From Aureibaculum luteum (GTDB lineage Bacteria; Bacteroidota; Bacteroidia; Flavobacteriales; Flavobacteriaceae): DNA of 64,000 bases. Positions within the stretch are counted from its first letter, which is position 1. Each line of letters begins with the position of its first letter. A program made the position numbers and the translations under genes. The notes under the pieces are model-generated. The model worked only from the letters and a program-made list of their open reading frames with translations, ran no database searches and had not been told where the DNA came from. The stretch spans positions 248,001 to 312,000 of the forward strand of contig NZ_QRGD01000007.1 in NCBI RefSeq assembly GCF_003449015.1. The letters are read 5' to 3'. Positions 18,223-61,130 of this stretch are shown piece after piece.

Positions 18223-18282
18223 TTAGTTAGCTAAACATATTTTTTTGTTTGAACTTCTCTTTTTCGGATTTCCTACTTATTT

Positions 18283-18897
18283 TCAAAGCTCTAACTCAAA
18301 GAGATTCTTTTCATCCGTAATTGGAGTTTCCTCATATTTCAAAGTCCATCCTAATTCTTTGGTCAATACATAAAAATTGGTAAGTTCTTCTAACAGTCTC
18401 GTTTTTGCATTTTTTTGCAAATCAGAGTTCTGTAACTTTTTAATTAGAGACGATTTAATCGTTTCTTTAATATCATTATAATCCTTGGCTTCAAAAGGAT
18501 TAAAATAGTCTGCTTGAATATCGTAATATTCTAAATCGGGACTAATAGAAATTTGTTCCTTAGGTATGCTAATTATTTGGAGTGTCTTGGTAGCTTCATC
18601 AATTTTATACTCAATCTTACTAAGGTCATAGGAAATTGTGACATCAGCGTTCACTACTACAATTGCCTTTTTATCTGATGTTATATAGTCGGTAAATAAA
18701 GCTTTTGAATTTTTGTAATTAAAAACCTCACTAAAATGTCCTTCCGTCACAATAAGTTTACCCACATTTTTAATCTGCTCTTGTATTAACATTGAGTTTT
18801 CGTACAAAATAGACTTGTCATCTTTTTTATTTTCGCAATATCGAAAAACGAAAACAAAAAGCAGGGTAATAATTATGCCTAATAGGACTTTCTTCAT
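18283..18897 (-). CDS. DUF4230 domain membrane-anchored protein
   Basis: 204 residues. One N-terminal membrane segment (VLLGIIITLLFVFVFRYCEN), then a conserved extracytoplasmic domain: LIVTEGHFSEVFNYKNSKAL, KAIVVVNADVTISYDLSKIE, ITISIPKEQ-like and EAKDYNDIKETIKSSLIKKL. These are DUF4230 features. The function is unknown. Single gene, convergent with the hydroxylase. Confidence 0.75.
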   Translation of the reverse strand: MKKVLLGIIITLLFVFVFRYCENKKDDKSILYENSMLIQEQIKNVGKLIVTEGHFSEVFNYKNSKALFTDYITSDKKAIVVVNADVTISYDLSKIEYKIDEATKTLQIISIPKEQISISPDLEYYDIQADYFNPFEAKDYNDIKETIKSSLIKKLQNSDLQKNAKTRLLEELTNFYVLTKELGWTLKYEETPITDEKNLFELEL

Positions 18898-39694: not shown

Positions 39695-39761
39695 ATTATT
39701 AACAATCATTTGTAGTTGTTAACATAAAGCTATAAATGAGATATGAAATTACATATCTTTG
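39695..39761 (+). promoter_or_regulatory. Phased TTAACA promoter array of giant gene 1
   Basis: ATTATTAACA (39695), GTTGTTAACA (39715, +20) and TATCTTTG -10 box (39754). The slot where the third 10-mer would sit (39726) is not conserved, and the -10 box is 1 bp further away than in the other three genes. Confidence 0.6.
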
Positions 39762-40014
39762 CTAAGAAGCTGAAATTCAATTGATTTCTTAAATTAAGAA
39801 TCAAAAGTTAAAAGAATAGAGAAAGTAGTATATTTTTTTATATTTCAGAAATATAGTATACATTTTACCTACACGGTAATAAGGGAGTTCTATGCGGTTA
39901 GGAGCGTTATAGAACATTTAAATATTTTAAGTATGTCTTATTGTTAAAACTACGTCTTAACATCTAAGTATGTCTGTACGAATATTGTGTACGTAATTTT
40001 TAAATAATATAAAT

Positions 40015-43000
40015 TTGATTAATAGGGTAAGTCTGTCGCTAATTACTTTTTTTGTAAAATGTTCTAAAGGTATTGTTTCTGCTCAAGAAAACTATTTGAA
40101 TACTTTTAAACATTGCTTAAATTTACTTCTGGTAATTATATTGTTATTTGCCACCAATAGTTATGCACAATGTGGATTTGGAGGAACGAATTCAGGCATT
40201 ACCGTAACGCCATCTGCAGCAACACAAACTACTGCTAATCTAGGAGCTAATGATTATTTTTTAATGAATGTTGTCAATGGAGGTAATTATAGGGTAAGTA
40301 CTGCTCCAAATGGAACTTTTGACACTCAGTTATCACTATACAATGAATCTGGGGGAGCATTTGTAGGATATAATGATGATATTGGAGGTGGTAATCTTCT
40401 TTCAACAGTTACATTTACGTCAACTTTTACTGGTCAGGTTAGAATAGTTTTAAACAGATGGGATTGTAGAACTAATAACGGTGGTAACGCAGATTTTGGA
40501 GTAGAATATTCTGGTTCAGCCCCAATAACTTCGATAGATTTAGCGGTAATTAAAACCGTAAGTGATACAACACCAAATGAGGGAGATAATGTTACTTATA
40601 TATTAGAGATTACGAATAATGGTCCTGTACAAGCAACCAACTTAACGCTAACAGATCTATTGCCTGGTGGGGTCACTTATGTGAGTGATGATGGTGCATA
40701 TGTTTCTGGCACAGGTGTTTGGACCATTGGTACTTTAAATACTGGTGCTACATCTACGTTGAATATTGTAGCTGGAGTAAATTTTGGTACTGCTGGATCG
40801 ACAATAACAAATACAATAACGGCCGTTAATGCCGATCAAACGGATAGCAATGTTACAACAGATAATTTAACGGAATCAATTGTACCATCTGTAGATGCTC
40901 CTCCCGTAATAACTGCAGTCGGAAATGAATTTTTATGTCCGGGTCCTGGTAATTCACAAAATATTGCTACAAGTATTTCTCTTACAGATCCTGATGATAC
41001 TACAACAGATGCTGTTTATATTCAAATTTCCTCGGGTTATGTAACTGGAGAAGATTTATTAACGCTTACAGGAACCCATCCTAATATTACCGCGAGTTTT
41101 GACGTCACAGAAGGAGAACTTACCCTACAAGGGCCTACAACATTTGCCGAGTTTGAAGTGGCAATTTTAGCGGTAGAATATTCTAGTAATAATGCTAGTG
41201 CTACAGGAACTCGACAATTTTCAATTACTTCTGGTACCGCGAATTATTTACCTCCAACGGATCACTATTATGAATTTGTAACCCAACCGAATATATCTTG
41301 GACTGCTGCGAATGCAGCCGCAAATGCTCGGACGTATTTTGGATTACAAGGTTATCTAGCTACATTAACATCACAAGTTGAGGCCGATTTTTCTGGGTCT
41401 CAAGCAACTGGTGTAGGATGGATAGGAGCAACTGATGCCGCCACTGAAGGAGATTGGAGATGGGTCACGGGTCCAGAAGGTCTAGCCAATGGAGGAACGG
41501 GAACGCCTTTTTGGAGTGGAAATATTGGTGGAATAACAGTACCGCCGACTAATTTTGCATTTTGGAATGCAAATGAACCGAATGATTATCCGGGTGGTGC
41601 AGCGGTTCCTGGTCAAGAAAATTATGCACATATAACGGATGTTTCAGTAACATCTTCACCAGGTTCTTGGAATGATTTGCCGAATACAACATCTACTTCT
41701 GGTGCATATCAAGCACAAGGGTATGTCGTAGAGTATGGGGGCACTGTAGGTGACCCTGTTTTAAATATTTCTGCAACAACAATGATTACTTTAACAAGTA
41801 TTTCAATTGATACACAACCTTCAAATCAAACAATTTGTGAAACCGAAAATGGTAACTTTAGTGTCATAGCATCCGGATTGAATTTGACCTATCAATGGCA
41901 AATTAGTACCAATGGAGGCTCAACATTTACGGACTTAAGTGATGGAGTGGTTTATTCAGATACTGATGCAGCAATTTTAAATATTACTGGTGCTTCATCT
42001 GTGTTAAATAACAATCAGTATCGTGTAATTGTTGCTAATGGGGTTAATGGGTGTTCACCAGAAACTTCAGACGCTGCCACACTTACATTAAGTAACCCAG
42101 CGGTAACAGACCCGGGTGATTTTAATAGCTGTCTAACAGGAGAAACGTTGGTATTGCAGGCCGAGTTTGTTTCAGCCACCGCAGAATACACTTGGTATGA
42201 AGATGCCGATACCACTCCCGTTATGATTGCAAGTGGTGTAGGGTTGGATAATATAATAATTACTACACCTGGTGCTTATCAGCTTGTGATAGATCCTATA
42301 CTGGCTTGTACGTCAGATATTATTTTTATTAACGCCATACCTTGTGCGGTAGATGACTCATCATTAGTTGTAAAGGATAATGTTGCAGGTGTTGTAATAG
42401 ATGTCTTGGTAAATGATTCGGATCTTGAAAACGATATTGATATTTCTTCAATTAATAACACAAGTTTGTTGGCTCCATCTAACGGTACAGTTTCTATTAA
42501 TACATCAACGGGTGAAATAACGTATATACCAAATGCAGGGTTTTTCGGCACGGATACCTTCGAATACCAAATATGCGATACCAACACACCTGCACTTTGT
42601 GATGTGGGCTTAGTAGTGGTGGCAGTAGAAGTTGATACAGATAATGATGGTGTGGCAGACATTATTGATTTAGATGATGATAATGATGGAATTCCTGATG
42701 CCATTGAAGCAGGAGGAAACGATCCTTCAGCCGATATTGACGGTGACGGTATTTTGGCTTATTTAGATGAAGACGATACTAATGCGTCTATTGGAGATGA
42801 TACTCCCGGTATTGAACAAATCTATGATTTTGATGGAGATGGTATTCCAAATCATTTTGACTTAGATGCCGATAATGATGCAATACCAGATGTAGTTGAA
42901 GCAGGATTTACAGATGCAAATAATGATGGTTTGGTTGATACAGTATCATATGGTACAAATGGTTTAGCGGATGAAGTTGAAACATCTCCAGATAGCGGTA

Positions 43001-46000
43001 TTTTAGCAGTTATGCCCATCAACACTGATGCAGCCTATGATAATAACTCGAGTTTCACCTTGTATAATTTCTTAGATGTAGATTCCGATAATGATGGTAT
43101 TACAGATACTACCGAAGCATTTTCAAATAATGCTACTTATAACGATGTAGATAATGATGGTCAAATAGATGGATTTGTAGATGTTGATAGTAATGGTTGG
43201 CATGATACAATAGATGTTCAAACAGCTTTACCGACGTTTTTAAATTCAGATTCAGATTCAATTCCAAATTACCTCGATTTAGATTCAGATGGTGATGGAT
43301 TACCTGATACTTTTGAGGGTAATTTTCAGGTAACTGATGGGGATAACAATGGTGTTGTAGGAACAGGAATTCCTGTAGATACTGATGGTGATGGACTTGC
43401 TGATACCAACGATCCAGATGAAGCAGGAAATGTAATTGGCGGGTTTGGTTTTTACCAAGATAGAGATGGTGATGGTGTAAACAATACCCTGGATATCGAT
43501 ATTGATAATGATGGTATTATTGATAATACAGAAGGGCAACCTACCATTGGTTATCAAGCTCCACTTGGAACTGATACCGATGGCGATGGTATAGATGACG
43601 CATATGATGTGGACAATGGTGGTGTTGGGATCGGCTATACCAATACCGATGGTGGTAGTGCTCCTGATTATGCAGATACCGATGCTGATGACCCTAACGG
43701 TTTAGGAGCTGATCCTTATGATATTCTGGAAAATTTTTATACAGGGCCCGGTGAAGATGATTTTGATAATGATGGTATATTAGATTTAGCTGCTTTTAAT
43801 GATGCAGATAATGATGGTCTTGCTGATATTTTTGATTTACAACCTACACGTACCGCGGCCAATAATGCTACAAATGGAGGTCAAACACCTTTTAGTCAGC
43901 CAGATACGAATGGTACGGGAGATCGTGACTGGAGAGATTTAGATAATTCAGATAATGATGGTGACGGTTTAGCCGATACTACAGATATTGATGATGATAA
44001 CGACGGAATTCTTGATACTGTTGAAGGAACGGGTGATTTTGATGGAGATGGAGTGTCAAATAAAGATGATTTAGATAGTGATAATGATGGAATTTCAGAT
44101 TATACGGAGGCTGGTGGTACAGCCGATACAGACAGTAGTGGTATGCCGGGTACTGGTGTATTAGATGTTACTGAAGTAGATCTGAATGGACTTCCTTTGG
44201 TGTTATTAGGTGTTGGTTTAACGCCTGTAGATACAGATGGTGACGGAATTCAAGACTATCATGATATAGACTCAGATAACGATGGTATTACCGATGTTTT
44301 AGAAGCCGCAGGAGTAGATGATAATGGAGATGGAAGATATGGTACAGGTACTGGTAATGACAGTGATGCAGATGGAATAATTGATGCAATTGATCTTTAT
44401 GATAATAGAGATGGTAACCTTGATACCCTACTTGGAGGTACCCCACTTGCTATTCCTGATACAGATAGTGACGGACTGAATAACTATATTGATTTAGACT
44501 CAGATAATGATACGGTTCCTGACAATGTTGAGGGACAATCAACTGTTGGTTATATAGCTTTAGCTGGAATAGATACTGATGGCGATGGGCTAGATAATAA
44601 TTATGATACAAACAACGGTGGTACTACAATAGTTCCTGTAAATACTGATGGAACAGGCAATCCTGATTATTTAGATTTAGATGCCGATGGAGATACACTT
44701 TTTGATATTGTTGAAGCTGGAAATGGCACTGCAGATACTGATACTGATGGTAAAACTAATGGAACTTTAGGAGCCAATGGACTTGATGATACCTACGATG
44801 ATGGTATAGCAGGAGATACATTTATTGACCCTAATGGAACATTGGATGATACCCAAAGCGATAACTTTCCTGATGCAGATTTAGATGTTTTAATAGGAGG
44901 GGATGTTGATTATCGAGATATTACATTCAATGATAACGATAGTGATGGCGTTTCTGATGTTGCAGATTTAGATGATGATAATGATGGTATTTTGGATACT
45001 GTCGAATCAAATGGATTGGACCCTCTTGCGGATGCAGATAGTGATGGTGTCTCAAATTATCTTGATGCTGATTTTTGCACTTTAAATGCATTTTTGATTT
45101 GTGAGAATCTTGATTCCGACAGCGATGGTCTTCCAAACCATTTGGATTTGGATTCAGATGGTGACGGTATTCCTGATAATGTAGAAGCACAAACAACACT
45201 TGGTTATGCACCACCTGATGCGTTAGATAGTGATGGAAATGGACTGGACGACAGGTATGAAAATACTCCAGGTTCAGGTGAAGGATTGATTCCCGTTAAC
45301 ACAGATAGTACTGATAATCCTGATTATTTAGATACCGATAGTGATAATGATTTACTTGATGATAGTTTGGAATCTGGCATAATCTTGACAGGAACAGATG
45401 CGGATGGTGATGGGCTTGATGATGCAACTGACGCTATCTCAGGTTATACTGACCCAGGTGGTACAATTGATAATCCATTAACAGGTGGGGTTACACTACC
45501 AGATGCAGATGCAGATGCGAATACAGGGGGTGATGTTGATTTTAGAGATGATACGGATGACACAGCAGACTTAAGTTTGTTAAAGTCAATAGACAATACT
45601 ACGCCAGTAGTTGGCAATACTGTTATTTTTTCAATTACAGTAGCCAATAATGGGCCTGGCAATGCGACTGGGGTTGAAGTAATAGACCAATTACCATCGG
45701 GTTACACTTATGTTAGCGATAATGGTGCAGGATCATATAATTCTAGTACCGGAGTTTGGGCAATTGCAAATCTAAATACTGCTACTTCTGCCACATTGCA
45801 AATTACGGCGACCGTCAATGGAACTGGTTTGTATGAAAATACGGCTGAAATTACCGCTAGTAATAATTTTGATCCTGATTCTTTTCCAAATAATAATACT
45901 ATTGGTGAAGACGATCAGTCTTCTACAACTTCAGTTCCATTTACAGATGTTGATCATGATGCTGATGGTATTTTAGATTTAGAAGATCTTGATGATGATA

Positions 46001-48180
46001 ATGATGGTATTACTGATACTCAGGAATTATGTAGTGCTGATCCCATTACAGGTCCACCACCGTCGTCCACTATTAAAGTTACTATTGATTTAGATAATGA
46101 GGAAAATGAAACCACCTGGGTTCTAACTGATGCATCGGCCAATATTATTGCAAGTGGAGGATCTTACGTTGATTCGGATGAAACTATCGTTTCAAACAGC
46201 AGTGTTTTAACTTCAGGTAATTATACCTTTACTATTTTTGATTCAGGAACGGGAAATGGTCTTAATAATCCAGGAAGTTCAGATTCTAATGGCACTTCAG
46301 GCTATAGTATAGATGTTAATGGTACTACTATATTTACATCTGCTAATAGGCCTAATTTTGGGGCGTCAAGTACACATGTTTTTGCAGAAACTATTCCAAC
46401 TTTAAACATTTTCTCTTGTTTAACCTCTGATCCTAATAAGGATGATGATGGTGATGGTATTTTAAATTATCTGGATGCAGATTATGCTTTAGCCAATGGG
46501 TCTGCCTTAAATGCCAATGGGGTAGTAGCTATTTTAGATACGGATGGTGATGGTGTAATTAACAGTTTAGATTTAGATTCAGATAATGATGGTGTTTTTG
46601 ATATTATAGAAGCTGGGGGTATCGATGTTGTTGGTGTTGAAGATACGGATAATAATGGTAGAATTGATGGAGCTGACGCAACGAATGTTGGTGTAAACGG
46701 TGTTTTTGATACTATTGAAATCACTATTGATAGTGGTTTATTAACATATACAATTAGTGATTCCGATGGAGACGGTATCTATGATTTCAAAGAGATAGAT
46801 TCTGATGATGACGGTTGTAATGATGTAATTGAAGCAGGCTTTACTGATGATAGCGGAGATGGGATTTTAGCAGATTTAGCAACTATAGTTGATGTTAATG
46901 GATTAGTTTCAGGAACAAATGTAGTGGATGGATATACCATTCCCGCCGACGGTAATTCTAATAGTGTTTTTGATTTTCAAGAAGCAGGTACCTTGCCATC
47001 TATTTCGGCCCAAACAACAAGCCAACCCATCTGTGAAGGTACTAACGGTGCTTTTAGTGTTGTGGCCTCAGGTACAAATTTAACATATCAATGGCAGATA
47101 AGCACAAATGGAGGTTCAATATTTACTGATTTAAGTGATGTTGGGGTATATACAGGTACTAATAATGCTACATTGAATATTACTGGTGCTTTAGAGAGTA
47201 TGAATGGATATCAATATCAAGTTGTAGTTGGTAGTAGTGCTTTTATTTGTAGTCTTACAACTTCTACACCCGTTACCTTAACCGTTCCAGATGTTTCATA
47301 TACAGCCTCAGGGACTGGTCCAACTACATGTGGTGGTACTGATGGATCCATCACCTTAACCGGCTTAGTAGCTGGAACCAATTATAGAGTAAGCTATTCA
47401 GATGGTGGAGGGCCACAAACACCAGCTGTTTTAACTGCTGATGCTAGCGGAGAAATTCTAATTACAGGTCTAAGTGCCGACACTTACACAAATATAGTTG
47501 CAACATTATTTGGATGCTCAGGAACTCCGTTAAGTGTAACACTCTCAGATCCAATTAATCCTGATGCACCAGCAACTGGAGGCGATCAGTTAGAGTGTGC
47601 AACTATCCCAACACAAACACTTACGGCAACAGCAACAGCTCCTGGTGGGTCGAGTTTAGTGTGGTATGATGAAGCAACCGGTGGTAAGGTTGTAGCAAGT
47701 CCAACATTAAATACTGTTGGAACTATAACTTATTATGCAGGAAGTACGGACAATACAACAACCTGTGAGAGTACGGTAAGAACAGCGGTTTCTTTAACGC
47801 TACAAGATTGTGAAGCGGACTTAAGTTTAAAAAAGGGCGTTAATAATTCAACTCCTGATGTAGGTGATGCTATTAACTTTAGAATTACATTAGAAAACGA
47901 TGGTCCATCTGACGCCAATTCTATCATTATAAGAGACATAATTCCAAGTGATTTTACGTATACACATCCTAATTTTGTAACGAGCCAAGGTACGGTAGCT
48001 TTTGATTCAGGAACCGGTGCGTTGACATGGGATTTAGGAGCTTATGTTTTGACTAGCGGAAGTAGTTTAACATTAACCTATACCGTTACTGTTGATGTCT
48101 GTGGAGAGTTTGTTAATAAGGTGGAAATTATCCAGAGTTCGCAAGTTGACCCTGATTCCACACCCAATAATGGTAATTAA
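40015..48180 (+). CDS. Giant secreted protein 1: PPC-like, DUF11, C-type lectin, Ig-like and calcium-repeat adhesin
   Basis: 2721 residues. No ATG lies between the in-frame stop at 39994 and the signal peptide. TTG 40015 or TTG 40096 must be used; the latter gives a better signal (ends NSYAQ). Order: PPC-like beta domain; DUF11 (about 180-290); C-type-lectin-like domain (about 410-580) with E521-P-N and W552-N-D; Ig-like (about 600-700); cadherin-like (about 780-870); a rail of DxDxDG calcium repeats (about 873-1848); a middle DUF11 (about 1850-1960); a Cys2006-Cys2135 module; more repeats; Ig-like domains; a terminal DUF11 (about 2600-2721) ending STPNNGN. Probably a cell-surface adhesin or matrix protein; no type IX sorting domain is recognisable. 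Confidence 0.85.
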   Translation: MINRVSLSLITFFVKCSKGIVSAQENYLNTFKHCLNLLLVIILLFATNSYAQCGFGGTNSGITVTPSAATQTTANLGANDYFLMNVVNGGNYRVSTAPNGTFDTQLSLYNESGGAFVGYNDDIGGGNLLSTVTFTSTFTGQVRIVLNRWDCRTNNGGNADFGVEYSGSAPITSIDLAVIKTVSDTTPNEGDNVTYILEITNNGPVQATNLTLTDLLPGGVTYVSDDGAYVSGTGVWTIGTLNTGATSTLNIVAGVNFGTAGSTITNTITAVNADQTDSNVTTDNLTESIVPSVDAPPVITAVGNEFLCPGPGNSQNIATSISLTDPDDTTTDAVYIQISSGYVTGEDLLTLTGTHPNITASFDVTEGELTLQGPTTFAEFEVAILAVEYSSNNASATGTRQFSITSGTANYLPPTDHYYEFVTQPNISWTAANAAANARTYFGLQGYLATLTSQVEADFSGSQATGVGWIGATDAATEGDWRWVTGPEGLANGGTGTPFWSGNIGGITVPPTNFAFWNANEPNDYPGGAAVPGQENYAHITDVSVTSSPGSWNDLPNTTSTSGAYQAQGYVVEYGGTVGDPVLNISATTMITLTSISIDTQPSNQTICETENGNFSVIASGLNLTYQWQISTNGGSTFTDLSDGVVYSDTDAAILNITGASSVLNNNQYRVIVANGVNGCSPETSDAATLTLSNPAVTDPGDFNSCLTGETLVLQAEFVSATAEYTWYEDADTTPVMIASGVGLDNIIITTPGAYQLVIDPILACTSDIIFINAIPCAVDDSSLVVKDNVAGVVIDVLVNDSDLENDIDISSINNTSLLAPSNGTVSINTSTGEITYIPNAGFFGTDTFEYQICDTNTPALCDVGLVVVAVEVDTDNDGVADIIDLDDDNDGIPDAIEAGGNDPSADIDGDGILAYLDEDDTNASIGDDTPGIEQIYDFDGDGIPNHFDLDADNDAIPDVVEAGFTDANNDGLVDTVSYGTNGLADEVETSPDSGILAVMPINTDAAYDNNSSFTLYNFLDVDSDNDGITDTTEAFSNNATYNDVDNDGQIDGFVDVDSNGWHDTIDVQTALPTFLNSDSDSIPNYLDLDSDGDGLPDTFEGNFQVTDGDNNGVVGTGIPVDTDGDGLADTNDPDEAGNVIGGFGFYQDRDGDGVNNTLDIDIDNDGIIDNTEGQPTIGYQAPLGTDTDGDGIDDAYDVDNGGVGIGYTNTDGGSAPDYADTDADDPNGLGADPYDILENFYTGPGEDDFDNDGILDLAAFNDADNDGLADIFDLQPTRTAANNATNGGQTPFSQPDTNGTGDRDWRDLDNSDNDGDGLADTTDIDDDNDGILDTVEGTGDFDGDGVSNKDDLDSDNDGISDYTEAGGTADTDSSGMPGTGVLDVTEVDLNGLPLVLLGVGLTPVDTDGDGIQDYHDIDSDNDGITDVLEAAGVDDNGDGRYGTGTGNDSDADGIIDAIDLYDNRDGNLDTLLGGTPLAIPDTDSDGLNNYIDLDSDNDTVPDNVEGQSTVGYIALAGIDTDGDGLDNNYDTNNGGTTIVPVNTDGTGNPDYLDLDADGDTLFDIVEAGNGTADTDTDGKTNGTLGANGLDDTYDDGIAGDTFIDPNGTLDDTQSDNFPDADLDVLIGGDVDYRDITFNDNDSDGVSDVADLDDDNDGILDTVESNGLDPLADADSDGVSNYLDADFCTLNAFLICENLDSDSDGLPNHLDLDSDGDGIPDNVEAQTTLGYAPPDALDSDGNGLDDRYENTPGSGEGLIPVNTDSTDNPDYLDTDSDNDLLDDSLESGIILTGTDADGDGLDDATDAISGYTDPGGTIDNPLTGGVTLPDADADANTGGDVDFRDDTDDTADLSLLKSIDNTTPVVGNTVIFSITVANNGPGNATGVEVIDQLPSGYTYVSDNGAGSYNSSTGVWAIANLNTATSATLQITATVNGTGLYENTAEITASNNFDPDSFPNNNTIGEDDQSSTTSVPFTDVDHDADGILDLEDLDDDNDGITDTQELCSADPITGPPPSSTIKVTIDLDNEENETTWVLTDASANIIASGGSYVDSDETIVSNSSVLTSGNYTFTIFDSGTGNGLNNPGSSDSNGTSGYSIDVNGTTIFTSANRPNFGASSTHVFAETIPTLNIFSCLTSDPNKDDDGDGILNYLDADYALANGSALNANGVVAILDTDGDGVINSLDLDSDNDGVFDIIEAGGIDVVGVEDTDNNGRIDGADATNVGVNGVFDTIEITIDSGLLTYTISDSDGDGIYDFKEIDSDDDGCNDVIEAGFTDDSGDGILADLATIVDVNGLVSGTNVVDGYTIPADGNSNSVFDFQEAGTLPSISAQTTSQPICEGTNGAFSVVASGTNLTYQWQISTNGGSIFTDLSDVGVYTGTNNATLNITGALESMNGYQYQVVVGSSAFICSLTTSTPVTLTVPDVSYTASGTGPTTCGGTDGSITLTGLVAGTNYRVSYSDGGGPQTPAVLTADASGEILITGLSADTYTNIVATLFGCSGTPLSVTLSDPINPDAPATGGDQLECATIPTQTLTATATAPGGSSLVWYDEATGGKVVASPTLNTVGTITYYAGSTDNTTTCESTVRTAVSLTLQDCEADLSLKKGVNNSTPDVGDAINFRITLENDGPSDANSIIIRDIIPSDFTYTHPNFVTSQGTVAFDSGTGALTWDLGAYVLTSGSSLTLTYTVTVDVCGEFVNKVEIIQSSQVDPDSTPNNGN

Positions 48181-48280
48181 GAATCACTCTTAGTAATTAA
48201 TTATTTTTTGAAGTGTTTTTGGGTTAAAATTTTAACTATTAAAAATGACTTGAATCACTTTCTTACCTAAAATCTATAGA

Positions 48281-48298
48281 GATGACTAATTAGTCATC
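48281..48298. repeat. Perfect 18-bp palindrome GATGACTAATTAGTCATC
   Basis: Fully self-complementary, 100 bp after the stop of giant gene 1. It could be a dyad protein site or part of a terminator (followed by ATTATTTATG rather than a T run). Confidence 0.6.
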
Positions 48299-48543
48299 AT
48301 TATTTATGTAATTCTTTCCAATATTAAATCCATTACATTAATTTTTTTAGTAATCTTATTTTTTAACGTATCTAATGCTTTTGAAATACTCGTTACGTTT
48401 GTGAAAAATTTCTGGATAGAATTAGCTATTCAAAAGAGTATACTTTCTTAAAATAAAAGAGGTTCTAGAAATCAAAATTTCATTGTTAAAACACAATAAC
48501 ATATTGGTGATGGCGTTAAAACCCTTGTAATAAAGTGGAAAAC

Positions 48544-48609
48544 GTTATTAACAGCCAACAGTTGTTACTGACAAAATTTTAACAAACTGATAATCAGTAA
48601 GTGTATTTG
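48544..48609 (+). promoter_or_regulatory. Phased TTAACA promoter array of giant gene 2
   Basis: GTTATTAACA (48544), GTTACTGACA (48564, +20), AATTTTAACA (48575, +11), TGTATTTG (48602, +27). The 10-mers match GTTATTAACA at 10, 8 and 7 of 10 positions. The spacings are identical to those of genes 3 and 4. Confidence 0.6.
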
Positions 48610-48703
48610 TAAATTTCTAAAATTTGCAAGTGCTGTTTTGATGTTGTTTTAAAATCAATGCAATTTGGAATTTAAAAATGCAACACAGAACGGAAACGCT
48701 CGT

Positions 48704-51700: not shown

Positions 51701-52651
51701 GCTGCAAGCGGATTTTATCCTATTGATTTTGTGTATTGGGATCAGGGAGGTGCTTATACTTTTACGGCAGAAATTAGACAAGGTTCTCAACCTTATGAGG
51801 TTGTGAATTCTGATTTTATTGCAGGTACTTGTATAGATTCCGATGGAGACGGTGTTGTTGATGCGTTAGATTTAGATAGTGACAATGATGGTATTCCAGA
51901 TAATGTAGAAGCACAAACCACTATTGGATATATTGCTCCGAATGCTGATAGTCCTGCTACTTACATTGCAAATAATGGTTTGAATTCCGCCTACTTAGGT
52001 GGTTTAACACCTACCAATACGGACGGTACTGATAATCCTGATTTTCTAGATTTAGATTCTGATAATGAAGGTGCAAATGACACTTCTGAAGCGGGTATTA
52101 CATTAGCAAATAGTGATTCAGATGGTGATGGTTTAGATGATGCTACAGATGCAACCAACGGATATGCAGACCCAGGCGGAACAATTGACAATCCATTAAC
52201 AAACCCCGTAATTTTACCTGATACTAATGGTGATGCAACCACAGGGGGAGATGTTGATTTTAGAGATGTAATTGGCGAAGCAGATTTAAGTTTAAGAAAA
52301 ACGGTTGATGCTAGCAACCCAGATGTAGGAGATAGTATTACATTTACAATTGTAATTGCAAATGATGGCCCTTCATCAGCAACAGCTATAGAAGTACAAG
52401 ATATTATTCCAGCAGATTTTACATACACTCATATTCCTGCCAATTATACAGTAACTCAAGGGACAGTTGCTTATAACACAAGTACTAGAACTATGAATTG
52501 GAATGTTGGAGCTTACGTTTTAGCTTCAGGCAGTTCAATTTCTTTAACCTATACTATTACGGTTAATGTATGTGGTGAATTTAAGAATCAAGCTGAAATT
52601 ATAAATAATGCAGCTACGGATCCTGATTCTACACCAAATAACGGACGATAA
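48704..52651 (+). CDS. Giant secreted protein 2: triple PPC-like repeats, lamin-tail, calcium repeats, PA14-like, DUF11
   Basis: 1315 residues from ATG 48704; the frame is also open from TTG 48665, and ATG 48719 is possible. The signal peptide ends at MANAQ. Three tandem PPC-like beta domains of 138 residues (about 33-441). A lamin-tail-like domain (about 448-642; [35 protein letters not shown]). Calcium repeats. A PA14-like module (Cys873 to Cys1043; [41 protein letters not shown]). More repeats, then a terminal DUF11 (about 1191-1315) ending [10 protein letters not shown]. Likely surface exposed. No sorting domain is recognised after DUF11. Confidence 0.85.
48802..50027 (+). repeat. Three tandem 414-bp repeats inside giant gene 2
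   Basis: Units begin about 48802, 49210 and 49624 and encode 138-residue PPC-like domains. Units 1 and 2 are identical over about 129 bp (48943-49071 versus 49357-49485), pointing to recent duplication or gene conversion. Unit 3 is more diverged. Confidence 0.85.
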
Positions 52652-53355
52652 TACCGTTTTTTATAAGTAGTATTAATCTAAAAGTGTCTCATTTCATTCC
52701 TGTAGATTTAGGTTCAGTCTGTTTATTTTTTAAATGCTATAAAACAGGTGTTTATCTTTATCTGTTGCATGGGTTTTTTAGAGTTATTAACAATTATTTA
52801 GGGTTATCAACATATTGTTAACAATTTAAAATAAGGTGTATATATTCGTTCTAGTAATAAGTGGAAAAATAAAAAGGAGTTACTGATGTTAATCAATTTT
52901 GTAATATAAATCAATAATTATTTTTTGATTTGAATTGTGAAATAACCTGTAACCGTACTGTGGCTTATTTTATATAATTATGTCTGTTTTAACCAATCTA
53001 AAATAGAATTAAAGCACTGGCTATACATATAGGTGTTATTCATATTCTAGTTCCAATCGGCTGAAACTGTATACTTTCTAAAGAGGCCGTTCCTTTAAAG
53101 TAAATTTTACTGATTGTAAAGATGTATCTCACGTTTGGTTTGATTATACCAATGGTGGTTGTCTGTATGCGTTAATTTTGATGTTGAGTTGGTAGCTTTA
53201 CCATTTTTCAGTGTGCCCTATTTATTTGGGTATTTAAAGGTTGTGTTCTATAACCTTGAACTTATGAAGTTTTATAAAAAAAATAACAAATCATGCTGGG
53301 AATTTTCAGAATGAGGTGGTTATAATTGAATATTACTGTTTAAAAATAAGAATTC
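52652..53355 (+). other. 704-bp intergenic region and long leader of giant gene 3
   Basis: It holds the promoter array (52783-52848) and a transcript leader of about 490 nt. Inside the leader, 53082-53195 reads as a 37-residue open stretch of protein-like composition (KVNFTDCKDVSHVWFDYTNG) without a start codon, possibly a decayed gene fragment. No other gene was found. Confidence 0.5.
52783..52865 (+). promoter_or_regulatory. Phased TTAACA promoter array and conserved start region of giant gene 3
   Basis: GTTATTAACA (52783), GTTATCAACA (52803, +20), ATTGTTAACA (52814, +11), TATATTCG (52841, +27), then TAGTAATAAGTGGA (52852-52865, +11 from the -10 box). The same order, spacing and last 14-mer occur before giant gene 4. 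Confidence 0.7.
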
Positions 53356-56300
53356 TTGAAAAAAGTGGACCCAAAATTTCAGAAGCTATTTGTTTTAGTA
53401 ATCGCATTCGTTTTTACCCAAATTGGGTATACTCAATTAAGTGATTTACATTATTTACCTCCTTTAAAACAGGATAGCAATAACGTAGCCATACAGCAAC
53501 AAACCATTTATTTGTCAACTCCCGAAGTTACAACCTTTACAGTAAATGTATTCCAAGGAACCAATCCTACAGCAATAGCTTCTTTATCACTGTCCAAATC
53601 TTCTCCAATTGCTTATGGTCTGGGCAATGGAGATAACAACATAACTTTGGTGAATAATGGTAATACAGGGTCTGTATTAACCTCTAGTGGTTTAAAGTTT
53701 GAGGCTCCTGGCGGGCAAAAATTTTATGTTAATTATAGAGGGAGATCAGGTTCGCAAGCCGCCTCAATTACTTCTAAAGGAAGGGCTGCGTTGGGGCAGA
53801 TTTTTAAATGGGGAGGTGCACCCATAGAGGCGAATCATCCTTCAATGAGTGCCACTTTGGGTATTATGGCTACTGAAGATAATACGGAAGTAACTATAAG
53901 TGGATATAATCCAAATTGTGAATTTCGATTGGGAGGCACAATTGATGGCATAACAGCAAATTCGTTAACTTTTATTTTAGAAGCAGGGGAGTCGTATGTA
54001 TTAGAAGCTTCAAAAGATGCAACTACAGCCAATATTGATGGCTGGATTGGTGCTTCAATAGTTTCAGATAAAGATATTGCTATAAGTAATGGAATGCTGA
54101 ATTTTGGTGTAAATCCTAGTAGTGGAAGTAGAGATGCTGGTGCAGATCAACCCGTACCAGAAGATAAGTTGGGAAAGGAATATGTTTTTGTTCGTGGTAA
54201 TGGAGGTGTAACAAATGAGTTTGTTGTTATTATAGGAACGCAAGCAAATACTAACATTTATGTTAATGGCAGTGCTACGGCGTATGCTAACATTGGGGTC
54301 GGAGATTATGTAGAAATACCTTCTAGCTTTTATTCAGGCACTACTGTAGGACATAATATGTTTGTGTCTTCTACTAAAGATGTATATGCATATCAAGTAA
54401 TTTCTGGTGACACCGGAATTCATACGGTAAGTTTGAATTTTGTAGCTCCTGTAAATTGTTTAATGCCTGATACCATGGATTTCATTCATGATATTGAAGA
54501 TATTTCAGGTATTACAGCTGCAGGAGGTTTATTCATTATAGCATCAACCACTACAGCTAACGCCGATATTACTGTTACGGATGGGACAGGTGTGGTTACA
54601 TTACCTGCAGAACAAACTGTGGCTGGCTCACCAGATTGGAAAACGTTTTATCTATCAGGCCTCACGGGCAATGTTTCTGTAGTTTCTACAGGTCCAGTCG
54701 CGGTTGGGTTTTTAGGCTTTAATGGTGCACGTGGAATTGCGGGTTATTTTTCAGGATTTGATACCGTTCCTGTTATTGATTTGGAAGTTGTAGGAGGAGG
54801 GTGTCTTCCTGGAGCAACGGTAGAAGTTGTAGATAAAGATTTCGAAACTTACCAGTGGTTTGATGATGGAGTATTGGTGCCTGGTGCAACAAACCCAACC
54901 TATGATCCAACAGATTCTGGAGATTATTTTGTACGTGTAACCAAAGGAGGGTGTACCTATGATTCGCAACCAATTTCAGCATATTACTGTACTCCTGATA
55001 TCGTTCTAAATAAAACCGCTGATAAAACGGAGGTACTTGTGGGAGATATGATCACATTTGTAATCACGGTTGAAAGTAGAGGGCTTTATGACGTTACAAA
55101 TGTAAATGTGAATGATGTATTACCTGCTGGATTGAGTATCTCTACTATTAATGTAAGTACTGGCTCTTGGTCAGCACCGAACTGGACTGTTGGAACGCTA
55201 ACTAGTGGTCAAATAGAAACGATAACCATAGAGGCAGTGGCTAATGAAATATTGGGTCTCGAACAGCGTTTGGATCGCACGAATACTGCATCAAATAGTC
55301 AAGATCAGACAGATAGTAATAACACTACCGAGGTTCCATCAGTTGACTTTTCAATTTTACGTGATATAGACGATGATGGGGTAGCAGATCAATATGATTT
55401 GGATGATGACAATGACGGAATTTTAGATACTACCGAGTCTAATGGTAGTGACCCAAATGCAGATTCAGATTCAGATGGTGTTCCTAATTATTTAGACGCC
55501 AATTTCTGCACGCTTAATGCGGATTCTATCTGTGCCAACTTGGATATTGATAACGACGGTATTCCAAATCACATGGACCTTGATAGTGATGGTGATGGAA
55601 TTCCAGACAATATCGAGGCACAATTAACAACCAATTACACTGCCCCAAATACAGATACAGCATCAGATTATATTACAAATAATGGTCTAAATTCTGCCTA
55701 TATAGGTGGTTTATCACCAGAAAATACGGACGGAGCAGATACTCCTGATTATTTAGATACAAATGCAGATAATGACAGTTTAAACGATACGGCCGAGGCT
55801 GGAATTGCCCTTAGTGGTGTTGATACAGATAATGATGGATTAGATGATGGCACTGATGCAAATACAAGTGGTTATACAGATCCAGGTGGAACCATTGATG
55901 ATCCAATAACAGGTCCATTAGCATTGCTTGATTCAGATAATGACGCCAATTCTGGTGGAGATGTAGATTTTAGAGATACACTAGATAATAGGCCCGATAA
56001 TGACAATGATGGAATTGTAGATGCTGAAGATTTTGATGATGATAACGATGGTATTTTAGATACTGATGAAGGCTGCGGAAACTTGGTGATTAACGGTAGT
56101 TTTGAAGCTCAAGATTTTTCAGATCCTATTGTATTTCCAGACGGATTTACCGATACTTCAGGCACATTTATAGGTGCAACATATAATTCGAATACTTTAT
56201 ATGGATGGAACTATACTCAGAATATAGATGGTTGGATTGGTGGTCAAAGTCCATCATGGTCATCAAGTAGTTTTGCAACTGCATATAGTGGAAATCAATA

Positions 56301-59300
56301 CATAGACGTTGTAGGTAGTAACAACGTAACAGGTGGTGTTAACGGTATCTTATCACAAGTTATTAATACAATACCCGGTAATTCATATACATTTTCATTT
56401 CATTGGGGAGAAGATGTAGGTCATGGCAATGGTGCCATTATAACTTTAGATGTAGATGTGTTAGACGCAGCTAATAATCCATTAATTAATGAGACCATTA
56501 CAGCCACAGCTCAAGGTCCAATAGCTGGAGTAATTGGACCAAGAATTTGGTATTATTATAGTCAAACATTCACGGCAACTACTACAGAAACAAGGATACA
56601 ATTTAGAGCGACACCACCGGCAGGTTCTTCATCAGCAGGAGCAGATATCGATTATGTGAGTGTTGTAAATACAGGAGGTTGTCAAGATTCTGATAATGAT
56701 GGAGTCATCGATGCTTTTGATTTAGATAGTGATAATGATGGTATTTATGATGCTGTTGAGGCGGGTCACAATCAACCACATACAAATGGGGAGGTAAATG
56801 GTGCTGTTGGAGTAGATGGTGTTCCAAATGCTGTACAAGATGATCCAGATAGAGAAACTATAAATTATACAGTGGCTGATTCTGACGGTGATATTACCAT
56901 TGACGCCCAAGAATTAGACGCAGATGATGATGGTTGTAATGATGTAAATGAAGCAGGTTTTACAGATGGAGATGCTAATGGACTTTTAGGTTCAGGGACT
57001 TTTGGTTCAGGGTTAGCGGTGAATTCAAATGGGGTAGTAACTAGTGGTTCAGACGGGTATACAACACCTGCAGATGCAAATAGTAATACCATTTATGATT
57101 ATACTGAAGCAGGTTCTTTACCAACCATAACTAGTCAACCGTTAGATATAAGTGTTTATGAAACTGAATCTGCTAGTTTTAGTGTTGTCACTTCTGGTTC
57201 TAATCTAACGTATCAATGGCAAGAGAGTACAGACGATGGGGTTACTTTTAATAACTTAAGTGATACGGGTATTTATTCTGGTGCCCATACAGCAAATCTT
57301 GTAATTACAGGAGTTACCACTTCTATTGATAATAATAAATACCGAGTTATAATTAATAATGTAACCTATGCTTGTGGTTCTATTACCTCAACAGTAGCTA
57401 CAATAACTGTTTTAGTAGATATAGATACTGACGGCGATGGTATTTTTAATAGAATTGATTTAGATGATGACAATGATGGTATACCTGATTTAGAAGAGAG
57501 TCAATGTGAAGTTAGTATATCTCCTGGAGTTCCTCCTAGTTCAAATGCTGCTCTTAGTTTAGGTTCAAGATTGTACACAGATTTTAATAGTTATTGGACT
57601 TCAGCAGTTGGTGCTATTAATCCATTGAAACCTGATAATACTTCAAATTTATTAGCTTTTGAAATAGGGAGTCAAACATACGCTACTGGGGTAGTAAATA
57701 GTAGGTTAATTGATAGTGACAATGACGGATTGTTCGATGCCTTAGATACTGATGGTAATGGAATAGGAGATGTAACTCTAGTAGAAACATCGTGGACGGC
57801 ACTTACACCAGTTAGAGATATTAATACGGGTATTCGCTTAGAAGGATCTGCCTTAGATGGAAATACCGCGGCTGCTGTTGGCCCACTTTTAACATCTGGA
57901 GGTGCACCTTTTAACCCCTATTTAAATCAAGGAGTTAGAGGTTTAAATTTGGCATATTCAATTGCCAATATTGGAGATGTTTGGTATTTTAATATCCAAG
58001 GGATATTGTCGAGTGCTTATGGTGATGGAATTCAAGATATTCTTGTAACCCAAGTAGCTCAGCCGGGAGGATCGACCTTCAATACATTGCATCTTATTGA
58101 TAATTCAGGTAATTTTATTGGTAATGGAGTTACTGTAAATTGGAATACGGTGAGTTCAATGGGTAATCATTTGGTAGATCAATACAATACGAATGATTCA
58201 GTAAGTGGTAGCAATCAATCTAAAGGCATACGTTTTGCAGCAATTGAGCTTTCTGAGTTTAATTTAACACCTGCAGAAATAGCAAATGCAGTCGCTTTGC
58301 GATTGGAGATATCTTCTGATGCTGACCCAGCATTTTTTGTGGTAAATGATGCAAGTTTTTTATCTAACTGTGTTGATGTCGATTCTGATTTTGATGGTAT
58401 ACCTGATTCCTTAGATTTAGATTCGGACAATGATGGTATATATGACTTGGAAGAAAGTGGTGCTTTAAACGTCTCAGGAGTAAATGATAGTAATAACGAT
58501 GGTGTAATTGATGGACCAGCATCTTCTTTTGGAGACAACGGATTATTTACGTTAATTGAAAATAATGATACTTCAGGAGCTTCAATAACCTATTCAATTA
58601 GCGATTCAGATAGTGACTCAGTATATGATGCTTATGAATTAGATGCTGACAACGATAGCTGTAATGATGTTGATGAAGCTGGATTTACGGATGGTGATTC
58701 TAATGGTCTTTTAGGTTCTGGAACTTTTGGTTCTGGACTGACAGTGAATTTGAATGGGGTTGTAACTAGTGGATCAGATGGTTATACTACTCCAGATGAC
58801 TTGAATACAAACAACACTTATGATTTTCAAGAAGCAGGAGCAATTCCAGTAATTACTGATCAACCTACGGATGATTCTATTTGTTATGGTGACAATGCTA
58901 GATTTGAAGTTGTGGTTACAGGCTCAAATTTAATATATCAGTGGCAAGTGAGCACTGACGGAGGTTTTACTTTTGCCGATATTAGTAATAGTTCAGTGTA
59001 TAATGGAGCAACGGCGGCGGTTTTAAATGTTATTACTCCAGTACAATCTTTTCACAATTATCAATACCGTGTAACTATTTCAGATAGTGCTTTTAGTTGT
59101 GGTTCTGTAATATCAGAAACTGCAGTTTTAACAGTACAAGTACAGCCGAATGCGGGGAATAATGGTGCTTTACATTTGTGTGAGGATGATATTGCTACTT
59201 TAGCACAATTACAAGCAGCGATTACAAGCGAAGACGCAGGCGGAATATGGAGTCCAGCGTTGGCACCAAACGTAACAACATATACGTATACGGTTGCGGC

Positions 59301-60675
59301 AACATCACCATGTACAACAGATGATGCATCAATAGTATTGGTAACATATCAAGCACAACCGAATGCAGGAAACCATGGTACTCTAGATCTATGTGTAGAT
59401 GGTACTGCAACTATAGCACAATTACAAGCAGCTATTACTGGCGAAGATGCAGGTGGAACATGGAGTCCAGCGTTGTCACCAAACGTAACAACATATGCGT
59501 ATACGGTAGCAGCAACGTCACCATGTTCAACAGAGGATACATCAACTGTAACGGTTAATTATGTTGCACCAACAATAGCAATATCAAATGGGCCTATTTG
59601 TTCCTTAGATTTATTAACATATAGTGTTGAGGTTACTGTGAGTGGTGGATTAGTTACAAGTACGGAAGGTACGGTCACAAGCACCTCAGGAAATAATTGG
59701 ACTATTTCTGGTATAAATACTGGTACAAATGTAACGCTAACAGTTACAGATACGTGCACAAATTCTTTGGTTGTTACTGCACCAAATTGTAGTTGTCCAG
59801 TGGTTGCAGCTCCATCAAGTGGAGGAGATGACAATTATTGTGCTGGAGAATCTATTCCGACTTTAACAGCAAATGTTGGTCTTGGAGAAACTGTAGATTG
59901 GTATGCTGGATCTACTGTTGGAATACCATTGTTATCTGGTAATACATCCTATATTCCTTCTGGGTCAGGGACATTTTATGCAGAAGCTAGATTAATTGTT
60001 AATGGATGTACAAGTACTTCAAGGACACTAATAACACTTACTGAAAACCCACTCCCTGCTGCTCCTGTAAGTGGAGGAAATCAAACTGAATGTGCTACTT
60101 TTCCAATACAAACACTTACGGCAACAGCAACCACTCCAACGGGATCAAATCTTGTTTGGTATGACGCAGCAAATGGTGGTAATGTTGTAGCTAGTCCGAC
60201 ATTAAATACAGTTGGAACAATAATATATTACGCAGGTAGTACGGACAGTACTACCAATTGTGAAAGTGCTTCAAGAACGGTAGTTGCTTTAACTATTGAA
60301 GATTGTGATGCTGACTTAAGTTTAAAAAAGACAGTTGACAATTCAATTCCCGCAGTTGGTGATGATATTTCCTTCAGCATAACGTTAAGAAACGACGGGC
60401 CGTCTGCTGCAAATGCTATTATTATTAGAGATATAATACCAAGTGATTTTAATTATACACATCCTAATTTTTCAACTAGTCAAGGTACGGTAACTTTCAA
60501 TTCAGGTACTGGTGCTTTAACTTGGGATTTAGGATCTTATGTTTTGTCAAGTGGTGGTAGTTTAACATTAGTTTACACAGTTACAGTTAATGTGTGTGGC
60601 GAGTTTGTAAATAAAGTGGAAGTGGTTAGTAGTTCGCAATCAGATACAGATTCTACGCCAAGCAATGGAGGTTAA
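53356..60675 (+). CDS. Giant secreted protein 3: IgGFc-binding-like N domain, DUF11, calcium repeats, Ig-like
   Basis: 2439 residues from TTG 53356; an in-frame stop at 53347 leaves only TTG, or GTG 53365. The signal peptide ends IGYTQ. The N domain (about 30-480) resembles IgGFc-binding N-terminal domains (SNGMLNFGVNPSSGSRDAGA, EDKLGKEYVFVRGNGGVTNE). A DUF11 (about 550-660). Calcium repeats. A jelly-roll-like module opening NLVINGSFE (Cys907-Cys1109). Ig-like. An unnamed ~290-residue module (Cys1384-Cys1672). Ig-like. Two 71-residue repeats. Further Ig-like domains, then a terminal DUF11 ending DTDSTPSNGG. A surface or extracellular adhesin is likely; no type IX sorting domain is seen. Confidence 0.85.
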   Translation: MKKVDPKFQKLFVLVIAFVFTQIGYTQLSDLHYLPPLKQDSNNVAIQQQTIYLSTPEVTTFTVNVFQGTNPTAIASLSLSKSSPIAYGLGNGDNNITLVNNGNTGSVLTSSGLKFEAPGGQKFYVNYRGRSGSQAASITSKGRAALGQIFKWGGAPIEANHPSMSATLGIMATEDNTEVTISGYNPNCEFRLGGTIDGITANSLTFILEAGESYVLEASKDATTANIDGWIGASIVSDKDIAISNGMLNFGVNPSSGSRDAGADQPVPEDKLGKEYVFVRGNGGVTNEFVVIIGTQANTNIYVNGSATAYANIGVGDYVEIPSSFYSGTTVGHNMFVSSTKDVYAYQVISGDTGIHTVSLNFVAPVNCLMPDTMDFIHDIEDISGITAAGGLFIIASTTTANADITVTDGTGVVTLPAEQTVAGSPDWKTFYLSGLTGNVSVVSTGPVAVGFLGFNGARGIAGYFSGFDTVPVIDLEVVGGGCLPGATVEVVDKDFETYQWFDDGVLVPGATNPTYDPTDSGDYFVRVTKGGCTYDSQPISAYYCTPDIVLNKTADKTEVLVGDMITFVITVESRGLYDVTNVNVNDVLPAGLSISTINVSTGSWSAPNWTVGTLTSGQIETITIEAVANEILGLEQRLDRTNTASNSQDQTDSNNTTEVPSVDFSILRDIDDDGVADQYDLDDDNDGILDTTESNGSDPNADSDSDGVPNYLDANFCTLNADSICANLDIDNDGIPNHMDLDSDGDGIPDNIEAQLTTNYTAPNTDTASDYITNNGLNSAYIGGLSPENTDGADTPDYLDTNADNDSLNDTAEAGIALSGVDTDNDGLDDGTDANTSGYTDPGGTIDDPITGPLALLDSDNDANSGGDVDFRDTLDNRPDNDNDGIVDAEDFDDDNDGILDTDEGCGNLVINGSFEAQDFSDPIVFPDGFTDTSGTFIGATYNSNTLYGWNYTQNIDGWIGGQSPSWSSSSFATAYSGNQYIDVVGSNNVTGGVNGILSQVINTIPGNSYTFSFHWGEDVGHGNGAIITLDVDVLDAANNPLINETITATAQGPIAGVIGPRIWYYYSQTFTATTTETRIQFRATPPAGSSSAGADIDYVSVVNTGGCQDSDNDGVIDAFDLDSDNDGIYDAVEAGHNQPHTNGEVNGAVGVDGVPNAVQDDPDRETINYTVADSDGDITIDAQELDADDDGCNDVNEAGFTDGDANGLLGSGTFGSGLAVNSNGVVTSGSDGYTTPADANSNTIYDYTEAGSLPTITSQPLDISVYETESASFSVVTSGSNLTYQWQESTDDGVTFNNLSDTGIYSGAHTANLVITGVTTSIDNNKYRVIINNVTYACGSITSTVATITVLVDIDTDGDGIFNRIDLDDDNDGIPDLEESQCEVSISPGVPPSSNAALSLGSRLYTDFNSYWTSAVGAINPLKPDNTSNLLAFEIGSQTYATGVVNSRLIDSDNDGLFDALDTDGNGIGDVTLVETSWTALTPVRDINTGIRLEGSALDGNTAAAVGPLLTSGGAPFNPYLNQGVRGLNLAYSIANIGDVWYFNIQGILSSAYGDGIQDILVTQVAQPGGSTFNTLHLIDNSGNFIGNGVTVNWNTVSSMGNHLVDQYNTNDSVSGSNQSKGIRFAAIELSEFNLTPAEIANAVALRLEISSDADPAFFVVNDASFLSNCVDVDSDFDGIPDSLDLDSDNDGIYDLEESGALNVSGVNDSNNDGVIDGPASSFGDNGLFTLIENNDTSGASITYSISDSDSDSVYDAYELDADNDSCNDVDEAGFTDGDSNGLLGSGTFGSGLTVNLNGVVTSGSDGYTTPDDLNTNNTYDFQEAGAIPVITDQPTDDSICYGDNARFEVVVTGSNLIYQWQVSTDGGFTFADISNSSVYNGATAAVLNVITPVQSFHNYQYRVTISDSAFSCGSVISETAVLTVQVQPNAGNNGALHLCEDDIATLAQLQAAITSEDAGGIWSPALAPNVTTYTYTVAATSPCTTDDASIVLVTYQAQPNAGNHGTLDLCVDGTATIAQLQAAITGEDAGGTWSPALSPNVTTYAYTVAATSPCSTEDTSTVTVNYVAPTIAISNGPICSLDLLTYSVEVTVSGGLVTSTEGTVTSTSGNNWTISGINTGTNVTLTVTDTCTNSLVVTAPNCSCPVVAAPSSGGDDNYCAGESIPTLTANVGLGETVDWYAGSTVGIPLLSGNTSYIPSGSGTFYAEARLIVNGCTSTSRTLITLTENPLPAAPVSGGNQTECATFPIQTLTATATTPTGSNLVWYDAANGGNVVASPTLNTVGTIIYYAGSTDSTTNCESASRTVVALTIEDCDADLSLKKTVDNSIPAVGDDISFSITLRNDGPSAANAIIIRDIIPSDFNYTHPNFSTSQGTVTFNSGTGALTWDLGSYVLSSGGSLTLVYTVTVNVCGEFVNKVEVVSSSQSDTDSTPSNGG
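59143..59568 (+). repeat. Two tandem 213-bp repeats in giant gene 3
   Basis: Units start at 59143 and 59356 and encode 71 residues each (QPNAGNNGALHLCEDDIATL / QPNAGNHGTLDLCVDGTATI, both followed by GGxWSPALxPNVTTYxYTVA). Similar repeats are common in large gliding and adhesion proteins of flavobacteria. Confidence 0.75.
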
Positions 60676-61130
60676 TTGATTCTTTTATGATAAAATGGTT
60701 TCGTTTAATTCGATAGTTTTCAATTCAATAGTTAAAGAAGTTAATAATGTATTCATATCAACTGTTTTGTTGATAAAAAGTAATTTTCAATAATGGCGTT
60801 AACGCAATAATAATCAGTTAGGTACGTTTATGTTGTTAACAATCACAAGTGAAGTTATTAACAATTAATTAAGGTTATTAACATTTTATTAACATTACGA
60901 AACTAGCTATCTATATTTGCTTTAGTAATAAGTGGAGAATTGAAAGGGTTTATTGGAGTAATCTTTTTTTTAGCAAATTTATTTAAGTAGCACGCTTTAA
61001 ATGTTAAAATTACTTGTGAACTTACCGGAACTAATAAGTGGAGTAAGGTTTTTCTATGAGTATGGTTTTAATCATTTAAAGTTCGTTGTTTATGTAAATA
61101 AAAATTACGTTAATAATAAATAAATCAATT
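60676..61130 (+). other. 455-bp intergenic region and leader of giant gene 4
   Basis: It contains the promoter array (60832-60936) and a leader of about 190 nt in which the word TAATAAGTGGAG recurs (60926 and 61032). No gene was seen; the reverse-strand open frame at 61076-61261 is treated as chance. Confidence 0.5.
60832..60936 (+). promoter_or_regulatory. Phased TTAACA promoter array and conserved start region of giant gene 4
   Basis: GTTGTTAACA (60832), GTTATTAACA (60854, +22), GTTATTAACA (60874, +20), TTTATTAACA (60885, +11), TATATTTG (60912, +27) and TAGTAATAAGTGGA (60923-60936). The last TTAACA is 17 bp before the -10 box and so sits where a -35/-33 element would. Confidence 0.7.

Follow-up and report, generated by a model that had tools for sequence, protein, structure and literature searches.

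Phased arrays before four giant surface-protein genes

We analyzed a 64,000-nucleotide stretch of the Aureibaculum luteum genome (Flavobacteriaceae; assembly GCF_003449015.1, contig NZ_QRGD01000007.1, positions 248,001 to 312,000; hereafter, the window) in which four genes for giant surface proteins, all on the forward strand, are each preceded by an array of TTAACA-type 10-mers. Gene 1 (40015–48180, with a TTG start as called mechanically) encodes a 2721-residue DUF11-containing protein, gene 2 (48665–52651) a 1328-residue protein with LTD and DUF11 domains, and gene 3 (53356–60675) a 2439-residue protein with IgGFc_binding, Ig_7, and DUF11 domains. Gene 4 (61131–63998) encodes a giant FG-GAP repeat protein that continues beyond the window end; the protein has 2481 residues in locus L045, where the next gene begins about 10 bases past it (G and L numbers label genomes and loci throughout).

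Direct reading of the letters bore out the preliminary description of this locus, in which the 10-mers upstream of genes 2–4 were spaced by exactly 20 and 11 base pairs (bp), with 27 bp from the last of them to the -7 box. The gene 4 array (60832–60894) has four copies, GTTGTTAACA at 60832, GTTATTAACA at 60854 and 60874, and TTTATTAACA at 60885, the first being the additional copy, 22 bp upstream, that had been reported, and is followed by the -7 box TATATTTG (60912–60919; predicted transcription start, 60924). The gene 3 array (52783–52823; GTTATTAACA at 52783, GTTATCAACA at 52803, and ATTGTTAACA at 52814) precedes the box TATATTCG (52841–52848; predicted start, 52853), and the gene 2 array (48544–48584; GTTATTAACA at 48544, GTTACTGACA at 48564, and AATTTTAACA at 48575), in which copies 2 and 3 are degenerate, precedes TGTATTTG (48602–48609). 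Gene 1 has two copies, ATTATTAACA (39695–39704) and GTTGTTAACA (39715–39724), which match the two-copy pattern with 2 mismatches, and no third. These copies and the gene 1 -7 box, TATCTTTG (39754–39761; predicted start, 39766), had been located correctly, but the second copy lies 39 bp from the box instead of 38 bp.

Excerpts from two studies describe flavobacterial sigma-A promoters as TTTG / TAnnTTTG (PMC6847099, PMC9723704), the -7 box TAnnTTTG lying at -12 to -5 (PMC9723704). The -7 boxes of genes 4 and 1 match this form, and those of genes 2 and 3 each depart from it by one mismatch. In genes 2–4 the TTTG of the -33 element is absent, and TTAACA stands at -35 to -30 instead. The idea of a variant promoter class therefore holds for the -33 element, whose place is taken by a TTAACA copy as had been proposed, but not for the -7 box, which, as TATATTTG and close variants, is the usual flavobacterial sigma-A box. 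Since sigma-A -7 boxes sit at -12 to -5, the conserved A of AGTAATAAGTGGA is the predicted transcription start of genes 3 and 4. Relative to the predicted start, the 9-mers contained in the copies (hereafter, boxes) begin at about -91, -69, -49, and -38, and a gap of 2 bp (3 bp in G008) separates box 2 from box 3.

From 3 bases past the -7 box, genes 3 and 4 have 14 bases, TAGTAATAAGTGGA, in common (52852–52865 and, with identical letters, 60923–60936), in agreement with the preliminary description. This leader, at the predicted transcription start, recurs in altered form in most genus promoters of the gene 4 type; the gene 4 leader has a further copy downstream, with one mismatch (~61030), and a TAATAAAGTGGAAAA form stands 5′ of the gene 2 array. 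Single folds of the leaders differ and revealed no RNA structure in common (no alignment-based fold was made), and Rfam at gathering thresholds gave no match in 39500–64000. A second conserved element, approximately AATCAG-N(4-6)-TACGTT, lies 5′ of box 1 in gene-4-type promoters (~60780–60830, with orthologues in G007, G009, G016, G003, G010, and G014).

The array is real and lies far above chance. In the whole 5.1-Mb genome, the three-copy pattern followed by TANNTTTG, with up to 3 mismatches, has four forward matches, no reverse matches, and no control matches; genes 4, 3, and 2 supply three of the forward matches (0, 2, and 3 mismatches, respectively), and the fourth, with 3 mismatches, is at window position 14345. 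That the motif might be no commoner than in random DNA, a concern raised with the preliminary description, did not hold, as none of 3000 simulated regions of 520 bp (forward strand) reached 3 mismatches or fewer. With up to 3 mismatches allowed, the two-copy 10-mer pattern has 10 matches in the genome; the four promoters account for every match with at most 2 mismatches, and the remaining six, with 3 mismatches, are at control level (7). Taken alone, gene 1 does not reach significance with the three-copy pattern (7 mismatches, attained in 159 of 3000 simulations), and its array rests on the two-copy match together with the orthologous promoters in G009, G007, and G011. The array-like stretch at 14345–14406 lies between two genes, 5′ of a forward-strand frame (14612–15064), and is also present in G007 and G009.

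Conservation within Aureibaculum

A scan of 84,980 species genomes, a set to which the window's own genome or near ones possibly do not belong, found the exact three-copy form in 9 stretches in 8 records, twice in Aureibaculum flavum and otherwise in Flavobacteriaceae or Bacteroidetes assemblies. A search of 60 genomes that allowed 3 mismatches found arrays with 0–1 mismatch in 11 from the genus, counting the window's own; outside the genus, only G039 has a match, a single one with 3 mismatches. We built a profile (R1) from 21 arrays, with G015 outside the training set, and it matched the locus at an expectation value (E) below 1e-6 in 14 of 14 genus genomes where sufA was found, values that are not independent because most of the matches are training sequences. 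Neither sufA nor an R1 match at the locus was found in G001, G006, and G012. In the window's own genome, the R1 match next after the four arrays has an E of 0.057.

Mean pairwise identity among seven arrays adjoining sufA is 0.97 in the motif columns, 0.51 in the spacers, and 0.39 in the 60 bases upstream. These loci were found by pattern, which favours the pattern's own columns; in the 13 motif columns outside the search pattern, identity is still 0.96. The spacings of 20 and 11 bp are held, apart from a shift of a single base in G008 (20/12) and in G015, where the distance to the -7 box is one base shorter. A phased, conserved regulatory array common to the surface-protein promoters, as first proposed for this locus, is thus upheld. 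We considered whether the promoters might be alike merely through recent duplication or homogenisation of gene units, for which the leader and some spacer letters common to genes 3 and 4 could speak. This is highly improbable: by eye, each promoter is closer to its orthologue in other species than to its neighbours, and the motif columns are conserved while the spacers diverge, a conservation pattern that largely contradicts such an origin.

Array-like pairs also stand 5′ of another large surface-protein gene ('MTNFF' start) in G012, G003, G014, and G015 (L121, L122, L127, and L137), not beside sufA in the stretches read. In five genus genomes a pair with up to 3 mismatches lies 5′ of a conserved secreted protein of the 'IFNFRIES' type (L130, L131, L135, L136, and L139); the coding frame in L136 is cut by the contig end, and the one such protein tested had no Pfam match.

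A family-wide element at HU, dnaB, and predicted origins

Of 299 Flavobacteriaceae genomes, 254 contain the exact pair TTATNAACA-N11-TTATNAACA (two of them from Aureibaculum), compared with 8 matches in 7 genomes for a reversed-control pattern. Thirty of the exact-pair loci, not a random sample, were examined: 24 are at HU, 3 at dnaB, and 3 elsewhere, two of these being surface-protein arrays. When R1 was applied to 199 Flavobacteriaceae, 40 of the 197 besides G000 and G011 had matches at E ≤0.001 (rough values), mostly to the two-copy part. We read 40 of the 43 such sites listed, all outside the genus, and by downstream protein words 23 lie at HU, 8 at dnaB, and 9 elsewhere. Among these nine, L202 (beside a sufB-like gene) and L222 precede a protein that has 652 residues or more and is truncated where the stretch ends; L203 lies at a contig end, L236 has no gene called, and two are inside genes. 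Examples of HU, DnaB, RpiB, RecA, and DnaA were checked with Pfam. HU was found in 16 genus genomes (not in G012), and in all 16 the two copies of the HU pair are 21 bp apart, the second lying 54 bp (53 in G013) 5′ of TATATTTG, which is the register of array box 1. Unlike the arrays, all 16 of these promoters retain TTG at -34.

The arrays had been tentatively attributed to a dedicated activator. This attribution is unsupported: the two-copy element is family-wide, most of the sites read lie 5′ of HU or dnaB, and single copies are clustered at the predicted replication origin (oriC) of four relatives. One form of it would be a genus activator such as the NarL/LuxR-type response regulator encoded beside a motif-bearing small secreted-protein gene. 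That regulator occurs in 16 of 17 genus genomes versus 1 of 14 non-genus genomes searched (E of 1e-60 or better), and a pair with up to 3 mismatches lies 5′ of the small gene in 7 of the 17. We nevertheless regard this as very improbable, given not only the family-wide spread of the element but also that the pair is missing where the small gene is missing (G003, G010, and G014), with the arrays intact there, and that a terminator-like hairpin (by eye) separates the small gene from the regulator gene in G000. The regulator's own gene does not carry the sites, the pair being that of the small gene next to it, and we rejected the regulator as the binder. The small gene has a TTAACA pair upstream and repeated ACTAGTGGTTT in its leader (L133, L132, L134, L140, L109, L123, and L129; G000 copy, L154).

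The switch in guanine–cytosine (GC) skew of G009 was placed near the contig ends by visual inspection of twenty sparse windows, in which the direction of genes was taken into account, and finer windows put it at about 5,118,000–5,119,000, beside rpiB. The oriC predicted there has eight 9-mers within 1 mismatch of TTATTAACA and no canonical DnaA box, TTATNCACA; the orthologous region of G016, also at the skew switch, has eleven such 9-mers. Windows of 700 bp with at least 8 near-matches number only three among the 2264 from G009 and G016; all three have low GC and are presumably the origin windows. The rpiB-side regions of G002 and G004, placed by orthology and box density, are the densest windows of the 120 and 140 kb searched; the G008 stretch ended before rpiB and falls outside the comparison. 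The predicted oriC lies beside rpiB and not at dnaA, which is at 1.76 Mb in G009 (L335, ~17915–18604 in G009, with the matching region in G016, G002, and G004).

Together, the four predicted oriC regions (2828 bp, AT-rich) contain 14 occurrences of TTATNAACA, where the remaining fetched DNA predicts 0.34 and local composition 0.98, and none of TTATNCACA, TTATNGACA, or TTATNTACA (TTATN[C/G/T]ACA). Canonical DnaA boxes were thus rejected as the boxes of these origins; at the dnaA promoter, a canonical-looking box counts as contrary evidence. When the four regions are aligned, identity is 0.82 in box columns and 0.59 in other columns, and several boxes hold their position between species while position 5 varies.

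These origins also bear on whether the arrays could be DnaA titration sites near the origin, without a role in transcription, in the manner of the DnaA-binding titration site datA. The suf locus does lie ~295–365 kb from the predicted oriC in G009, G016, G002, and G004, but one array stands before each of genes 1–4 at a fixed distance to the -7 box, and the profile search of the window's own genome down to an E of 0.05 found no extra boxes elsewhere; we consider titration improbable.

DnaA as the candidate regulator

We propose that the TTATTAACA copies are this lineage's DnaA boxes, with the consensus TTATNAACA (A for C at position 6), and that DnaA controls the giant genes, a reading to which we give a probability of roughly 0.6 on the strength of sequence comparison. 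It draws support from the clustering of TTATNAACA at predicted oriC regions that lack the canonical box, from the presence of the same pair before the replication-linked genes for HU and dnaB, and from the register that the second copy of the HU pair shares with array box 1. Excerpts of the literature point the same way: position 5 of the DnaA box varies (PMC5043019), as it does in oriC boxes that keep their place, and Escherichia coli DnaA prefers box pairs 2 or 3 bp apart (PMC11317965), the spacing of array boxes 2 and 3 (the HU pair, 20–21 bp apart, does not have it). In addition, DnaA has DHATV in its recognition helix at all 20 loci, compared with DHTTV in 8btg, and the residue that is alanine instead of threonine counts among the base contacts (PMC5043019). 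The copies differ from TTATNCACA in having A at position 6, so the array would work like DnaA boxes, with an altered box.

Several findings weigh against this proposal. DHATV also occurs in five loci from other families of the order. The dnaA promoter keeps the canonical-looking TATTCACA next to the start in 15 of 15 genus loci, and the exact canonical TTATNCACA lies within 150 bp at dnaA in 8 of 20 loci, which would mean either that DnaA still reads the canonical box or that this is a promoter feature. The altered box, as TTATTAACA, is found at the dnaA promoter of G043, from another family, and neither the dnaA flanks of G000 nor the other dnaA loci showed a cluster of either box. The usual third box, ATGTTAACA, is a poor fit to the 9-mer, as are two of the three gene 2 boxes (2 and 3), and the 20–22 bp period is without counterpart in the E. 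coli DnaA work as excerpted (PMC11317965). The oriC itself is a prediction from sparse windows judged partly by eye, in relatives and not in the window's own genome. Excerpts of a report on Elizabethkingia (PMC8994065), whose oriC was predicted with TTATCCACA and one mismatch allowed, neither support nor exclude TTATCAACA.

A different replication-linked regulator might instead bind TTATTAACA at oriC, HU, dnaB, and the surface-protein promoters. CtrA and MtrA are replication-linked regulators of that sort elsewhere, and the 11-bp direct repeat TTAACA-N5-TTAACA resembles sites of the OmpR/PhoB family. The LytTR, AraC, and OmpR families were also considered as possible sources of the binder. Both the direct repeats with periods of 11 and 20–22 bp and the dnaA promoter, where TATTCACA is kept instead, would suit such a regulator. 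However, no such protein was found, and the four predicted origins have no canonical DnaA box, so DnaA would have to act there without recognisable boxes; on balance we think this explanation rather unlikely.

If DnaA is the binder, the arrays may have arisen from a Flavobacteriaceae box pair, 20–21 bp apart, 5′ of HU and, in some genomes, dnaB. Aureibaculum would have recruited the pair to its giant surface-protein promoters and extended it to three or four boxes, the last two 2 bp apart and the last one standing in for the -33 element. We infer that DnaA binds this promoter face, probably cooperatively, and, because the -33 element is missing, that it activates and does not repress, most likely by helping sigma-A RNA polymerase start at the TATATTTG box. 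Surface-protein synthesis would thereby be tied to replication or growth state, a putative link to the cell cycle. For the fuller proposition, that Flavobacteriaceae DnaA reads the altered box TTATNAACA and that the giant surface proteins of Aureibaculum belong to the DnaA regulon through arrays of three and four boxes that take the place of the -33 element and couple these proteins to replication initiation, we see the chances as evenly balanced.

DnaA-controlled promoters are already known; the box variant, multi-box arrays that replace the -33 element, and giant surface-protein targets would be new. In the titles and abstract starts of the papers listed from the open-licence PubMed Central literature, we found no report of the array, of TTATNAACA as a DnaA box, or of DnaA control of flavobacterial surface proteins. 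If the proposal is true, the family's DnaA box escapes searches for the canonical box, its DnaA regulon (HU, dnaB) can be read off the sequence, and giant surface proteins are linked to the replication cycle. Should the binder be some other protein, there is still a concrete regulatory system open to testing, in which an operator spread through the family stands before HU and dnaB and is clustered at the predicted origin.

The layout resembles that of the BvgA-activated fha promoter of Bordetella, a giant surface-protein promoter with a phased site array reaching the -35 region, whereas the site sequence and, as read here, the regulator class differ. With the E. coli DnaA regulon, as excerpted, the arrangement shares tandem 9-mers 2 or 3 bp apart, replication-gene targets, and a short target list (PMC11317965), but here the box is TTATNAACA and not TTATNCACA, the core is a pair 20–22 bp apart, the targets include surface proteins, and the regulon is predicted from sequence. 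The remFG-sprCDBF (SprB) locus of Flavobacterium psychrophilum is comparable as a flavobacterial locus for a surface adhesin with a PorP/SprF partner; according to the excerpt, it uses sigma-54 and an SM5-type alternative promoter (PMC9723704), in contrast to the sigma-A -7 box and upstream array found here. An adhesin role for the proteins of the window, assumed in the preliminary description, is putative. These giant proteins stop in or just past a DUF11 repeat (DPDSTPNNG-like; gene ends 48180, 52651, and 60675), and genes 1–3 and the window part of gene 4 gave no match to the C-terminal sorting domain of the type IX secretion system. In the cluster of G009, type B sorting domains and PorP/SprF come only later: two proteins at its far end carry a type B sorting domain, and one PorP/SprF protein was confirmed.

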